Shown here one piece after another: positions 35,178 to 60,949 of a stretch of DNA of 64,000 nt. The position numbers were made by a program, and so were the translations under genes. The notes under the pieces were generated by a model that saw nothing but the letters and a program-made list of their open reading frames with translations, was not told the origin of the DNA and searched no databases. Origin of the DNA: Neonectria sp. B-13 (lineage: Eukaryota > Ascomycota > Sordariomycetes > Hypocreales > Nectriaceae); NCBI GenBank assembly GCA_002682825.1, contig NOKP01000010.1, positions 1,302,001 through 1,366,000 on the forward strand, in the 5' to 3' direction. Position 1 is the stretch's first letter, and each line of letters begins with the position of its first letter.

Positions 35178-36603
35178 ACAACCAAACAAGACAAACAAGA
35201 AATTTTAAAGCAAGAAAAATACCCCAGTCCCGCCACGATCCGGGACACGGCATCTGTACGATTGACGGACTCGGCGCGACGGCCTAGGCGTAAAGTAGGC
35301 GCAGGCGTAAGCATGGAACGCAGCACATGAGCTGAATGGATTGATTGATGGATGGATGGATTCCATTCGGGCTCACTGATGACGAAGTCTCTCCCGACTG
35401 CTCATGGTTGTCGGGTGCGTCTTTTGACGAATTCTCACCTTCTTGGATACTCTTTTCCCGTCCTGTCTCTCCCCCCATTTTGGATATTTCCATGCAAAAA
35501 GCATTGGAAACTGGGGGGCTTTCTAGAGCATACAGTTGGACGCGTCATCGGTATTCACCGAAACTAATTTCTTTAAGGCGTTGTTTCCCCTTGGTTGGAT
35601 TTTCTTTACTTGTCCATGACTATCTACCTTCTAGAGCTGGCGGGCGACTGTCGAGCGCTGCTCCTGTACATAGCAAATGCAGGCGGTTCACGGTTGGAAT
35701 GAACCATTACAAAAAGCAATTACCACGTCAACCTGTCTCTCCAATGCTGTCTACTGTGATTACTACAAAGTACGTAGAACCCGAATGCCTGTGGAGAATC
35801 ATTACACATGTCTGTCAATGGAGACCTTAATCCATTCCGAACTGGCTCACGCAGCCGTTTCAGGTCAACCCCACACCAGACAAATCGACGACGTCGAATC
35901 GTCAGCCGCCGAAACACACTTGAAGATTTGATTTGATTCAAAGCAATTTGGAAGGAATGAGCTGCAGGAGGCAAACGTGGGTCGCACTCAAGTCGGCGTC
36001 TCGCCTCATACCATGGGCGGCTAACATATGCGAGACACGCAAGAAACTAAAATGTAAGACAAAAGGCAGCCCATAGAGATCTTTACCTTTCCATGCGGAG
36101 TCTGATCATCATGCGACTCCTGATCATCGCCTTCGGTCTCAGCCATTCAGGTTGTCGGGACAAACTAAGAAAAGGACTGCATTGCTGAGGCATGATTCTC
36201 AGACATCGACATTCGTCATGGCGTTGGCTCGACGGCTCATCATGACAAAAGGGTTGGTGTCGCATCTGGCACTCTAGTCCAATCACCACGGAAAGCTATA
36301 AATATCTGCTACCTCAGAAGTCGCAGACCCAGAGGAAGTCTAAACTTGTTTGCCGCCACCATCGCACCGATCTGTGACGTACGTGCCTTGAAAGACATTA
36401 TGTGTAAGTATTAATTAAGGCTACCTTTTTCTTAATAGGTAAGGTACTTACTTAGGTATTGAGTGTCCGGGTAAGCCACTTCAAGTCTAAGGGTGCCCGA
36501 GATCTTATTGCCTCAGGGTTTTTCCCCTAAAGTCTTAATGCCTGAGGTAGGTCTACTCCTGAGGCCACAGCAACCCTTCCACAGAACACCAAATGCTTTG
36601 TTA
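35178..36603. other. Intergenic, border of the accessory patch
   Basis: 3' flank of the basic-protein gene, then unassigned sequence. From about 36400 the DNA is rich in CCTTA/TTAAG/GTACTTAC-type words, typical of low-constraint fungal intergenic sequence. No gene seen. Confidence 0.45.
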
Positions 36604-45874: not shown

Positions 45875-47480
45875 ATGCGTCGCTCAACAAGTTCATCGTC
45901 CTCGGAGACGGTCAACGAGAAGCTCCCGATCCCTCCTCCCACCACGACCAATGGCGAGAAATCCGACGCCCGGCCCTACTCGATACAGCGCATCCCCTCG
46001 CAGAACAACGAGACCGACGCCAACATCTACCCGGAGCCCGCCAATGCCGTACAGGCCGACCTCGAGCGCGGCGGCTTCGCCACTCCGGAGCCCGCCAAGC
46101 CCGGCGCACCGGCCGGGCCGCCTCCCGGCATGGCTCCAGCCGACTTCCCCGACGGCGGCCGCGAGGCCTGGCTCGTCGTCTTCGGCGGCTGGTGCGCGCT
46201 GTTCTGCACCTTTGGCCTGATCAACTGCGTCGGCGTGTTCCAGGCGTACTATGTGCGCGAGCCGCTGAAGGAGTATGACAGCTCGACGGTCAGCTGGATC
46301 ATGTCGGTGCAGGTCTTCTTCATGATCTTTTCCGGGTCTGTCGTAAGTCCACCCTCACTCTTGTTTCCTGGTGTTTCCGGCTAACTCCTCGTGTGAATAG
46401 TTCGGCCTCATCTTCGACAACTACGGCCCAAAATGGCTCCTCTGGGGCGGCTCGGTGGCCTACGTCTTCGGCCTCATGATGGTCTCCCTCGCATCCGACT
46501 ACTACCAGTTCTTCCTCGCGCAGTCCATCGTGGCCTCCATCGGCTCCAGCGCCGTCTTCAACGCCTCCATGTCGTCGCTGGTCACCTGGTTCTTCAAGCG
46601 CCGCGCCACCGCCTTCGGTATCATGGTCTCGGGCTCCTCGCTCGGCGGCGTCATCCTGCCCATCATGATGGACAAGATGATCACCCAGGTCGGCTTCCCC
46701 TGGATGATGCGCACCATGGCCTTCATGTTCCTCGCCCTGTTAACTGTCGCCTCCCTGACTGTCAAGTCGAGGCTGCCGCCGCGGCCCCGGACCTTTGTCT
46801 TAAAGGAGTACCTCGACGGCCTCAAGGACATTCGAATGTCCGTCACCATCTTGGGCTTCTTCCTCTTCATGTGGGGCATGTTCCTCCCCTTCAACTACGT
46901 TCTGCTGCAAGCCGAGGCTGCGGGCGTGTCGCAGACTCTCATCCCGTACTTGCTGCCCATCCTCAACGCTGTGAGGTACGTTCGCCCCCAAAGATCCTAG
47001 ATCCCAGACAACTCCCTATTGTCTTGATCAGTTACTGACTGACCTCTTTGTAGCATCTTCGGCCGTATCCTCCCAGGTCTCGTCGCCGACAGGATCGGTC
47101 GATACAACGTCATGATTGCCATCATGTTCATCTCGGCCCTGTTCTGCCTTGTCGTCTGGATCCCCGTCAAAGACACGGCGGGAATTCTCGTCTTCGCTAT
47201 CATCTTTGGCTTCTCATCTGGTGGCTATGTCAGTCTGTCCCCCACCCTCATCGCCCAGATCTCCGACATTCGCGAGATCGGAACTCGCGTTGGTACGGCA
47301 TTCGCCATTCAGTCGTTCGGTGCGCTCACCGGAAGTCCCATTGGCGGCGCTATTGTGAAGGCGCAACACGGCGATTACCTGGGTCTCCAGCTGTTCTCCG
47401 GCTGCACCATGATGGCCGGCGTTTTTGTTATCCTTGCCGCCCGCTACATCCAGGTCGGATTCAAGTGGGTAAAAATTTGA
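45875..47480 (+). CDS. MFS transporter, monocarboxylate porter (MCT) type
   Basis: Predicted 12-helix plasma-membrane transporter of the fungal MCT-like MFS group (substrates in the family include monocarboxylates, riboflavin and others; the substrate here is unknown). Spliced: 45875-46342, 46401-46975, 47054-47480, coding 489 aa. A cytosolic N-terminus of about 95 residues is Ser/Pro-rich; the domain starts at [20 protein letters not shown], whose PDGG[RK]xAW motif is diagnostic of this group. Later blocks are [40 protein letters not shown] (the motif-A-like loop between helices) and [20 protein letters not shown]. The C-terminus ends QVGFKWVKI. Both introns (58 and 78 nt) fall between membrane segments. 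Confidence 0.9.
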
Positions 47481-48080
47481 TGGAGAAGGTCCCTTTGGTT
47501 GGGACGACGCAAAGAGGGCACTCTTGCATTAATGCTTGCTGATAACGAGCTGGAGGATTGAATGCAACACGCATGAAATAGGGGAGGACAGCCACTGACT
47601 TGCTCAGTCTCCCCGCGAGCATCGTTGCACTCACGCAAAACAAGGTCGGGCGGATACATATCACATGTCACGGCGACGTTAGAATGAACAAACTACTCTG
47701 TATAATAAATATTTGCTCACTCTTCAAGCATGGCGCTGTAGCAAGTGAATGATTTGGTTGCTATTGGCGAGCGGAATATAAAGTGTACAGAACAGAGACC
47801 CGACCCCTTTCTCTCTCATCCTAGGTGAATCCGGAACCCGGAGCCTAACCCGATGGACGCATCCTTGAATTGAGTGTGGCGTGGGCATACAGGTGCAGTA
47901 TTAAAGCCAACCTGGCTGGACCTCAAGGTAGTTCCAGTTCACACGGTTCATCCCACGTAGTGACGTGAAAGTACAAATAGTTCAACATTGAGGGTACAAA
48001 TATGCACATGGGCTAAGGTCACGTAATTCTTTTCTGGGGAATCGTAGTTTTTATCAGCTCAACTAGCTATTTTATCTTCG
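47481..48080. other. Intergenic, 3' of the MFS gene and last exon/3' flank of the minus-strand array
   Basis: Convergent spacer. The minus-strand exon that begins at 48080 runs into this region. A TATAATAAATATT-type AT-rich patch at 47701 may be a polyadenylation region. No other gene seen. Confidence 0.5.
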
Positions 48081-49199
48081 CTGGGTTAGCGATTATGCAA
48101 CCAAGAGCCAAACAAGTCAAGGGCATGTACAGGGTTCTCAGTATGTAGATATGGTGAGTTTTTGAATCATAGAGATCATAAACAGCCTCTCAATATATCA
48201 TCATTGAACGGGAAATCAAGGGATAAGCAGGATACGTACCTTAGTAGTAAGGAGCCGTTTTCACGATCGGGTATAAGACTCAAACGTCAACTAGGCTTGG
48301 TTAGTAACCATGGTACCAAGATATAACTGATATAGCACAGCATAGACAGGGAAATGTTCTCAGGATGTAGATTGGTGAGTTTTTGAATCATGAAGATCAT
48401 AAACAGCCTCTCGATGTGTCATCATAGAACGGGGATTGTTGAAAGACGCATTGAATGAAATAAGGACAATCATAGTACGTACCTGATCGATGCGATAATA
48501 ATGTACAGCAGCAGTACGAGGGCAAGGTGCACCTTCTAGGTCCTGTTAGCGATCGATTCATCAAGCCAAACCCGACGTAGCATAGAAATGTGGGCAATTG
48601 TTCTCAGGATGTAGATTGGTGAGTTTTTGAATCATGGAGATCATAAACAGCCTCTCGATATATCATCACAGAACGGGGAATGTTGGATTGATAGCGCAAA
48701 GGGGGGAGAAAGCAGGATGCATACCTGACAAGTGTCAAATTTGTAGTGATCGAGTCCGAGAGTGAAAAAAATAAAATAAGGCTCTCTAGTCTTGATTAGC
48801 GGTCATGTCAACCAAAAAGATTGGCATATCAAGGGAATTGTTCTCAGCTTGTAGATATGGTGAGTTTTTTGAATCATATAGATCATAAACAGCCTCTCGG
48901 TATCATCATTGAACGGGGAAGATTGGGGTTACCGGGAAGGGAAAATGCAGAATGCATACCTGATGAATAGCAGCGTGCTTGGATCGAGTCCGAGATTGGG
49001 AGGAAAACTTGCTTTCTAGAGTCTTGATTAGCGACCATGTCAATCAGAGTAGACCGGCGTAGCATAGTGTATCAAGGGTAGTATTCTCAGCTTGTAGATA
49101 TGGTGAGTTTTTTGAATCATATAGATCATAAACAGCCTCTCGGTATCATCATAGAATGGGGTGGGTTTTAAAAGCGGAGGAAGGAAGAGCAAAACATAC
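48081..49199 (-). repeat. Tandem array of five intron-like units separating short divergent exons
   Basis: A conserved core of about 76 bases occurs five times (48135-48210, 48357-48432, 48601-48676, 48841-48915, 49084-49158), spaced 222-244 bases apart. Copies 2 and 3 differ at 4 of 78 positions; copies 4 and 5 at 2. On the minus strand every core lies inside a sequence with good splice signals: introns 49199-49016, 48959-48786, 48724-48536, 48482-48291 and 48239-48081 (184, 174, 189, 192, 159 nt). Donors are GTATGT, GTATGC, GTATGC, GTACGT, GTACGT. Branch sites are GCTAAT, GCTAAT, GCTAAC, ACTAAC, GCTAAC, each ending in CTAG, or CCAG for the last. The 51-61 nt blocks between introns are far more diverged than the introns; exons 2 and 3 share only CTCGGACTCGATC clearly. 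The units look like genuine introns. Confidence 0.85.
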
Positions 49200-49214
49200 C
49201 AATTCGCAAGCCAT
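48287..49214 (-). CDS. Hypothetical microexon protein, 62 aa, from the tandem array
   Basis: Splicing the array on the minus strand as 49214-49200, 49015-48960, 48785-48725, 48535-48483, 48290-48287 gives an open frame of 62 residues. Exon products: MACEL; KASFPPNLGLDPSTLLFI; Arg at the junction then EPYFIFFTLGLDHYKFDTCQ; KVHLALVLLLYIIIASI; then Ser and stop. Intron phases alternate 0, 2, 0, 2. Two exons share an LGLD motif; the last coding exon is a hydrophobic helix. Skipping exon 5 would instead end in SEDKIAS. No family recognised. The start lies about 150 bases downstream, on the same strand, of the complex I subunit stop, so the exons could belong to its 3' UTR or a read-through transcript. 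The exons are too short for codon statistics; the splice signals are the main evidence. Confidence 0.45.
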
Positions 49215-49360
49215 CTTGTCCAAGCTCGAGCTGGCACAAGTTCAAGAGTCTCACATGGAAACAAACAAAAACTCCAATTCTCTAGTGTAGCATCTCTTCC
49301 CCGCCCAGAAGAGTTATGTACAATCGCTTAAGCCCCGTTCGCCCGCGCGGAAAATGCTGC

Positions 49361-50154
49361 TCATAGGCTGCCCTCAACAGTAGCGTTAACAGGGTTGACC
49401 TCAAACCCGTACTTCTCCTTGAGTCGCTCGGCTCGTCGCTCCTCGTACCCAGGGGGTCGGATTCCTGTGGAAGATTAGGACCTCTGCTGCTGCGTGGGGT
49501 GATGATGTGCGCGACTTACCTCGGCCCTCGCCAATCTCCGACACGGTCTGCTCGATCGGCAGTCGCGTTGTCCTTCGGAGAATTTCCTTGCGCGCGAACT
49601 CGTCGTCCTCCTTCTTAAAGGAATCGTATCGGCCACCAAGGTAGAAGAACATGCCCTGGAAGAAGCCGATACCAGAGCCGAGACCCACCACAACGGGAAT
49701 TCGCCGCGCTGCTCCAAGTTAGAACATTGCATCCCTCGCAAACTAGGGGATAGAAGGCGTACAGGGCATGCCGAGAACAGCACCCATCATGAAGCCACCA
49801 AAGGCCGCAGACCAGGGATCGTCCTGTTCGCGCAGGTTCATGGAGCTTCGCGAGAAGAAAACGTAGGCGGCGGGAGCGGCGGCTAGACAATCCAATTAGC
49901 ACCGGGACATCCCAATTGGCACGGGCGAGTTCGGGGAGCGTACTGGCAAGGCCGATGATAGGGGCGCCGCGAGTGAAGACGCTCAGGGCGCCGACATTCC
50001 GCTTGGACAGGGCATTGCGGATGGAGGCGATGAAGAGACCACTGGCACCACCGACGACACCGGCCTTCGCGGTGTCGCTGAGGGTGTCGTAAGGCTTGAA
50101 GACCTTCTCACCCTCATGGTGATCCTCGCGGGGAGCGGACGTTTGGCGTTCCAT
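49361..50154 (-). CDS. nuo21.3b: Complex I 21.3 kDa subunit (NDUFA11/B14.7 homologue)
   Basis: Accessory membrane-arm subunit of mitochondrial NADH:ubiquinone oxidoreductase, related to the Tim17/Tim22 fold. Spliced on the minus strand: 50154-49944, 49882-49763, 49708-49520, 49464-49361, coding 207 aa, close to the Neurospora 21.3 kDa subunit. It begins MERQTSAPREDHHEGEKVFK, then PYDTLSDTAKAGVVGGASGL; helices with small residues follow (GLFIASIRNALSKRNVGALS; AAPAAYVFFSRSSMNL; FGGFMMGAVLGMP; VVVGLGSGIGFFQGMFFYLG). The C-terminus is charged and matrix-type (YEERRAERLKEKYGFEVNPV). Introns of 61, 54 and 55 nt. Divergent from TRM10. The splice array 48081-49214 follows on the same strand. Confidence 0.9.
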
Positions 50155-58861: not shown

Positions 58862-58932
58862 GGGACGGGGAACGGGGGACGGGGAACGGGAGACGGGGAA
58901 CGGGGAATGGGGAATGGGGAACGGGGACAGGG
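58862..58932 (+). repeat. G-rich imperfect repeat (ACGGGG-type)
   Basis: About ten imperfect copies of a 6-8 base unit around ACGGGGA. The plus strand carries many runs of three to five Gs with short loops, so a G-quadruplex is sterically plausible. The tract lies about 510-580 bases upstream of the SKN7 start codon, with the G-rich strand being the SKN7 template strand. Confidence 0.8.
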
Positions 58933-60852: not shown

Positions 60853-60949
60853 CTGGAGACCGGAGACCGGAGACTGGAAACTGGAAACTGAGAACTGACA
60901 ACTGGAAACTGAAAGCTGGAAACCGGAGACTGGAAACCGGAGACTGGAG
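60853..60949. repeat. Degenerate 7-bp minisatellite (GGAGACC/GGAAACT)
   Basis: About fourteen copies of a 7-base unit GGARACY with mixed variants; two longer blocks share AAACCGGAGACTGGA. The variant mix suggests expansion of a short unit and then divergence. Noncoding; not a known fungal telomere sequence. Confidence 0.8.

Follow-up and report, generated by a model that had tools for sequence, protein, structure and literature searches.

The array described here lies on the minus strand of the window, i.e. the whole 64-kb stretch of DNA that was analysed, in a fungus of the family Nectriaceae. It is flanked by a convergent MFS transporter gene (window 46401-47480 (+), frame end 47480), and a minus-strand protein gene, running from 49361 to about 50150, lies just upstream; the first open piece of the latter has no Pfam match. 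The flanking tRNA (guanine(9)-N1)-methyltransferase gene shows 84-85% identity to Neonectria proteins, which are the top matches among the best 120 of 2048. Imperfect tandem repeats with 7-base units also occur in the window, ACGGGGA in 9 copies at 58865-58927 and CTGGAAA in 13.7 copies at 60853-60948.

The array comprises five units with a start-to-start spacing of 221-244 nt (Table 1), which confirms the five-unit minus-strand tandem repeat described in an earlier note on this DNA. Donor, CTAAY branch site and acceptor are found in every unit, and the donors and branch sites are intact in all five. An invariant 18-mer of the repeated core has five occurrences in the window, against 0.00 expected by chance. 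The donors and acceptors proposed earlier are all present at their positions, with one reservation: the intron 5 acceptor CTAACCCAG (window 48081) is doubtful, because the distance from branch A to AG is just 5 nt, compared to 10-12 nt in the other four introns. Use of an alternative AAG at 48076 would give a distance of 10.

Table 1. Predicted features of the array, in upstream to downstream order on the minus strand (window positions). Splicing is predicted from signals; exons 2-5 are probably non-coding; Rfam matches given are sub-threshold.
Feature	Position	Strand	Length (nt)	Details
First exon, 3' part (predicted)	49200..49300	-		Between upstream stop codon and first donor; upper limit arbitrary
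Intron 1 (predicted)	49016..49199	-	184	GTATGT...CTAG, branch CTAAT
snoRNA copy 1	49083..49157	-		Box C 49151-49146, box D 49090-49087; terminal stem ATTC/GAAT; SNORD107 and SNORD95 matches
Exon 2 (predicted)	48960..49015	-	56	
Intron 2 (predicted)	48786..48959	-	174	GTATGC...CTAG, branch CTAAT
snoRNA copy 2	48840..48914	-		Box C 48908-48903, box D 48847-48844; stem GTTC/GAAC; SNORD107 and SNORD95 matches; 97% identity with copy 1
Exon 3 (predicted)	48725..48785	-	61	
Intron 3 (predicted)	48536..48724	-	189	GTATGC...CTAG, branch CTAAC
snoRNA copy 3	48600..48674	-		Box C 48668-48663, box D 48607-48604; SNORD107 match
Exon 4 (predicted)	48483..48535	-	53	
Intron 4 (predicted)	48291..48482	-	192	GTACGT...CTAG, branch CTAAC
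snoRNA copy 4	48356..48430	-		Box C 48424-48419, box D 48363-48360; SNORD107 match; 95% identity with copy 3
Exon 5 (predicted)	48240..48290	-	51	
Intron 5 (predicted)	48081..48239	-	159	GTACGT...CCAG, branch CTAAC; acceptor uncertain, 48081 or 48076
snoRNA copy 5	48134..48209	-		Box C 48203-48198, box D 48141-48138; SNORD107 match

Within each of the five introns the conserved block is 75-76 nt long and has the layout of a box C/D snoRNA. On the minus strand the block starts with GTTC-N-R-TGATGA and ends with CTGA-GAAC, except for the different stem of copy 1. All copies retain an intact box C, RUGAUGA, close to the 5' end and an intact box D, CUGA, close to the 3' end, and the internal boxes D' (AUGA) and C' (AUGAUUC), both degenerate forms that were assigned by eye, are invariant. 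The terminal stem of 4 bp is paired in 5/5 copies; in copy 1 its outer G-C pair is replaced by A-U through changes on both sides, which 110 of 500 shuffles equalled, so that this is not significant. The stem begins 30-52 nt past the donor (41-60 nt in four of the five copies), and 57-71 nt separate the end of box D from the acceptor. The snoRNA-bearing introns of Neurospora mostly carry one snoRNA each, at 5' distances that are mainly 41-60 nt (PMC2780460). Single-strand folding energies of the copies are unremarkable (z -0.45 to 1.11). From these features, one and the same box C/D snoRNA is most likely repeated through the five introns, one copy in each.

Both strands of the 64-kb window were scanned for RTGATGA, followed 45-110 nt on by CTGA, together with a 4-bp terminal stem; this general layout, composed after the copies had been seen, gave six matches, five of which are the array copies, while 20 base-shuffled windows averaged 0.1. 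The sixth, at window 36147-36243 (-), is a lone box C/D-like motif whose 4-bp stem is mostly G-U, and is probably due to chance. Rfam yielded nine matches at E<=10 in 47400-49800, every one to a box C/D snoRNA family and on the correct strand. SNORD107 matched all five copies (18.2-27.3 bits, far under its gathering score of 50), SNORD95 (RF00189) matched copies 1 and 2 (18.9 and 17.6 bits, not reaching its gathering score of 55), and ceN113 matched the same two copies (19.7 bits, again far under the gathering score); no family reached its gathering score anywhere in the 64-kb window. These matches support the box C/D class, not any one family. SNORD107 was set aside as an identity for the array snoRNA, because 18-27 bits fall far short of its gathering score, 50. 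As for models of other snoRNAs, U14 has at least one place in this genome; SNORD24 has none, and matched no control either.

The 60.9 Mb assembly was searched at the DNA level with the intron core, as the earlier note had suggested, and with the whole of intron 1; both searches returned the five array copies and no others, at a first-look level that diverged relatives could escape. The proposal that the intron sequences multiplied in place is supported. The combination of box C and guide occurs at six places in the assembly, the sixth being inside an open protein-coding frame. Intron 1 matches another copy over at most 131 nt, at 83% identity. No exact copy of the snoRNA 18-mer was found in the viral contig set.

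Alignment of the five introns shows that strong conservation stops at the terminal stem, giving the blocks sharp edges. Identity of the snoRNA core is 86-97% (10 pairs among the five copies), total identity is 47-71% for the 5' flanks and 54-67% for the 3' flanks of the introns (10 pairs each), and that of inner exons 2-5 is 45-61% (6 pairs). The earlier figure of about 95% between neighbouring cores holds for two of the four adjacent pairs, which in order have 97, 86, 95 and 88%, and the conserved intron of that description shrinks to the 75-76 nt core, the remaining intron being far less alike (47-71%). The intron flanks do align detectably (z 2.0-8.4 over shuffles). Five of the six inner exon pairs do not align (z 0.2-1.8), in line with the nearly unalignable blocks of the earlier description, but exons 2 and 3 do (z 5.5) and have in common a stretch of 14 bases, TCTCGGACTCGATC. 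The reported reversal of the usual exon/intron pattern is borne out (core 86-97%, exons 45-61%); its main contrast is between the snoRNA and everything else, and a weaker intron-exon difference remains. The conserved look of the introns comes from the shared box C/D snoRNA inside each of them, and the drift of the exons from a host transcript that most likely does not code for protein. Among 77 aligned columns, 15 are variable, 4/53 in boxes, stems and guides and 11/24 elsewhere (Fisher p = 2e-4, with element limits drawn when the alignment was already known).

The D' guide, AGAGGCTGTTT, which precedes the box ATGA, is identical in all five copies. Written as AGAGGCTGTT, it resembles the SNORD95/U95 guide, and it overlaps the SNORD95 guide segment in the Rfam alignment of copy 1; the same stretch is involved for copy 2. 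The D guide, next to box D, comes in three variants, TATCTACAAG in copies 1 and 2, AATCTACATC in copies 3 and 4, and TATCTACATA in copy 5. For guide pairing, six rRNA contigs of other eukaryotes stood in for the organism's own rRNA, as exact patterns did not locate its main rDNA unit in the assembly. The 5.8S model has one weak, isolated place (C32:277588-277739, 52.7 bits), near a 5S rRNA gene; no LSU rRNA reaches the Rfam gathering score in the 8.5 kb around it.

The D' guide forms 10 Watson-Crick pairs with the LSU rRNA of contig L009, but equal or better matches lie elsewhere in the foreign rRNA, including 11 Watson-Crick pairs at L009 LSU 884 and at L010 SSU 600. By duplex energy, over 7/10 rRNA pieces, L010 SSU is best (-20.8) and L009 LSU second (-18.3). 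The full AACAGCCTCT is present in L009 alone of the six contigs, the other five differing inside it. The D' site is contained in a published metazoan 28S primer, AGGTGAACAGCCTCTAGTCG (PMC3950420). With this primer site the guide forms an 11-pair duplex of -18.1 kcal/mol. Mainly from the resemblance to U95/CD28, the D' target is likely the U95/CD28 site in LSU rRNA, which we take to be A2802 in human numbering. The snoRNA probably works like U95; it is not placed in the Rfam family SNORD95, because it scored 18.9 and 17.6 bits against 55, in 2/5 copies.

For the D guide of copies 1, 2 and 5, the top site by matched bases among 15,987 rRNA positions is LSU AATGTAGATAAGGGAAGT, with 13 and 14 of 18. 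The next sites for copies 1 and 2 are at a different place and have 12.5, a margin of 0.5, and for copies 3 and 4 the LSU AATGTAGATAAGGGAAGT site ranks only tenth. By energy, over 7/10 rRNA pieces, the D-guide site of contig L006 ranks 5th for copies 1 and 2, 7th for copies 3 and 4, and 2nd for copy 5; contiguous pairing is 8-9 bp. In six of six contigs the LSU AATGTAGATAAGGGAAGT site follows the D' site at a distance of 23-26 nt. We tentatively propose the U of ATGUAGAT in LSU rRNA as the D target. The U34/snR62 site is a neighbouring one, and the D guide would be displaced by about 9 nt from the Am1859 listed for CD28, assuming that our mapping of the Neurospora numbers holds.

Several other readings of the array were weighed. 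The predicted splice product of exons 1-5 does contain the open 62-codon frame reported earlier, which is ATG-started, spans four junctions (186 nt) and is the longest there. On it rests the proposal of a microexon gene for a 62-residue protein, with exons under diversifying selection and introns homogenised by conversion; the somewhat greater similarity kept in the introns (flanks z 2.0-8.4, exons z 0.2-5.5) also speaks in its favor. However, frames of that length arise in 11.7% of 2000 shuffled exon sets, and in 6.3% of 5000 with the ATG fixed, so that the frame is within chance, and it has no Pfam match. Whole-intron conversion would not, moreover, produce a snoRNA at 86-97% set between flanks at 47-71%, and we give a protein gene of this kind almost no credence. 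Local multiplication of an intron, whether introner-like or mobile in some other way, would account for similar cores in five adjacent introns at one place, and introner elements had been offered as an analogy. Yet the near-identical introns are not dispersed across genes: the first-look searches with the core and intron 1, which diverged copies could escape, found only the array's five in 60.9 Mb, and the sixth place with box C and guide is a protein-coding frame. The TCTCGGACTCGATC shared by exons 2 and 3 further indicates that the unit of duplication was an intron plus an exon, and mobility of the intron by itself is extremely improbable.

Tandem repeats that have no evident coding capacity also agree with a plain noncoding satellite, or with a row of snoRNA pseudogenes whose expression has been lost. 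This we regard as very unlikely, given that variable columns avoid the functional elements (4/53 against 11/24) and that boxes C and D, donors and branch sites are intact in 5/5 units. Appreciably better placed, although still the less probable arrangement, is read-through from the upstream minus-strand gene, by which the introns would sit in its 3' UTR with no separate host gene. Its reading frame has a stop codon at 49363-49361, just 161 nt from the first donor, and a Drosophila coding gene and the adjoining snoRNA host, RpL23A/Uhg7, can share one spliced precursor (PMC5932544). Neurospora clusters I-V, in non-coding UHG-like hosts (PMC2780460), argue against this, though not decisively. The host promoter may lie in the 161 nt after the upstream stop, or the host may be a 3' extension of the upstream gene; read-through alters the promoter, not the snoRNA function, and is compatible with the core of the explanation that we prefer.

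That explanation, which we hold with high confidence, is a non-coding host gene like UHG/Gas5 in a Nectriaceae fungus, with five introns that each contain the same box C/D snoRNA. It is based on the anatomy of the snoRNA copies, on the splice signals, on where conservation stops, and on the finding of no further copy in first-look assembly searches. Transcription, splicing, snoRNA processing, targets and methylation, as we infer them from sequence, would run as follows. RNA polymerase II would make a minus-strand transcript that is spliced at five short introns; the excised introns would be debranched and trimmed to one 75-76 nt box C/D snoRNA each, leaving the joined exons as a by-product. 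The mature snoRNAs would guide fibrillarin to 2'-O-methylation of 25-28S rRNA, with the D' guide setting the A of AAC-A-GCCTCT at +5, probably the U95/SNORD95 and Neurospora CD28 site, and the D guide, less certainly, setting at +5 the U of ATG-U-AGAT, which comes 23-26 nt after the D' site. The array itself would have arisen by serial tandem duplication of one intron-exon unit, after which the exons and intron flanks drifted and selection retained the snoRNA. The nearest copy pairs, 1-2 (97%) and 3-4 (95%), and the 14 bases shared by exons 2 and 3 fit such a history. Repeat-induced point mutation (RIP) is said to require roughly 400 bp (PMC2780460), and since the 131 nt match at 83% is far under this length, RIP need not have blocked the duplication.

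On this reading a snoRNA host gene resolves what had seemed paradoxical, introns that are conserved next to exons that drift, and its fungal snoRNA is one that no Rfam family recognises at threshold. If expressed, the array would allow the reason for tandem amplification of a single snoRNA to be studied in a tractable fungus. It is conceivable, though rather improbable, that the D' guide keeps one housekeeping rRNA methylation at high dosage while the D guide diversifies, leading to variable ribosome methylation. If true, this reading of dosage and diversification would provide a non-mammalian counterpart of SNORD115/116-type arrays, and the array would be one that evades RIP, its near-identical blocks being just about 75 nt.

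The earlier note knew of no described gene of this shape in ascomycetes, but the kind of gene, intron-encoded C/D snoRNAs in a non-coding host, is already known. As described in PMC2780460, Neurospora clusters I-V have UHG-like non-coding hosts with short ORFs of 159-267 bp, a size range into which the 186-nt frame of the array falls. Luo et al. (PMC3596301) report poor conservation and a lack of long ORFs for the spliced products of polycistronic snoRNA hosts in fungi. The array shares with these Neurospora clusters, and with mammalian UHG/Gas5, a multi-intron host, intronic C/D snoRNAs, short ORFs and poorly conserved exons. The fungal clusters presented in the two papers hold different snoRNAs per cluster, whereas here the same snoRNA occupies five introns. 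U95/SNORD95 is tied to the array through the SNORD95 model, whose matches to copies 1 and 2, below threshold, cover their guide segment. The closest fungal relative may be Neurospora crassa CD28, for which Table 1 of PMC2780460 gives an intronic location, a length of 78 nt (75-76 nt here), a D' guide for 26S-Am1845, and U95 and Arabidopsis snoR33 as homologues. The table lists one CD28 gene, in contrast to five tandem copies here, and the D-guide site seems different, Am1859 there and the U of ATGUAGAT here. Homology to CD28, drawn from its description and not its sequence, is a lead.

What looks unusual is the combination of a fungal genome, a predicted rRNA-guiding snoRNA and five tandem copies. 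In the literature searched, outside of which lies the fungal snoRNAome survey (Canzler 2018), we found no account of a fungal array that repeats one snoRNA in tandem. Five tandem copies stand out against Neurospora, whose snoRNA genes are mostly single-copy, a state that the authors connect to RIP (PMC2780460), and against a 2024 review in which large tandem C/D families are recent eutherian innovations (PMC11028025). The precedent for the arrangement is SNHG14, in which consecutive introns each yield the same C/D snoRNA, 29 introns for SNORD116 and 48 for SNORD115 (PMC11608373). The likeness is in consecutive host introns with a copy of the same C/D snoRNA in each; SNORD115 and SNORD116, as portrayed there, are mammalian, have no known targets and belong to an imprinted locus, whereas the array here is fungal, has a predicted rRNA target and consists of five copies.
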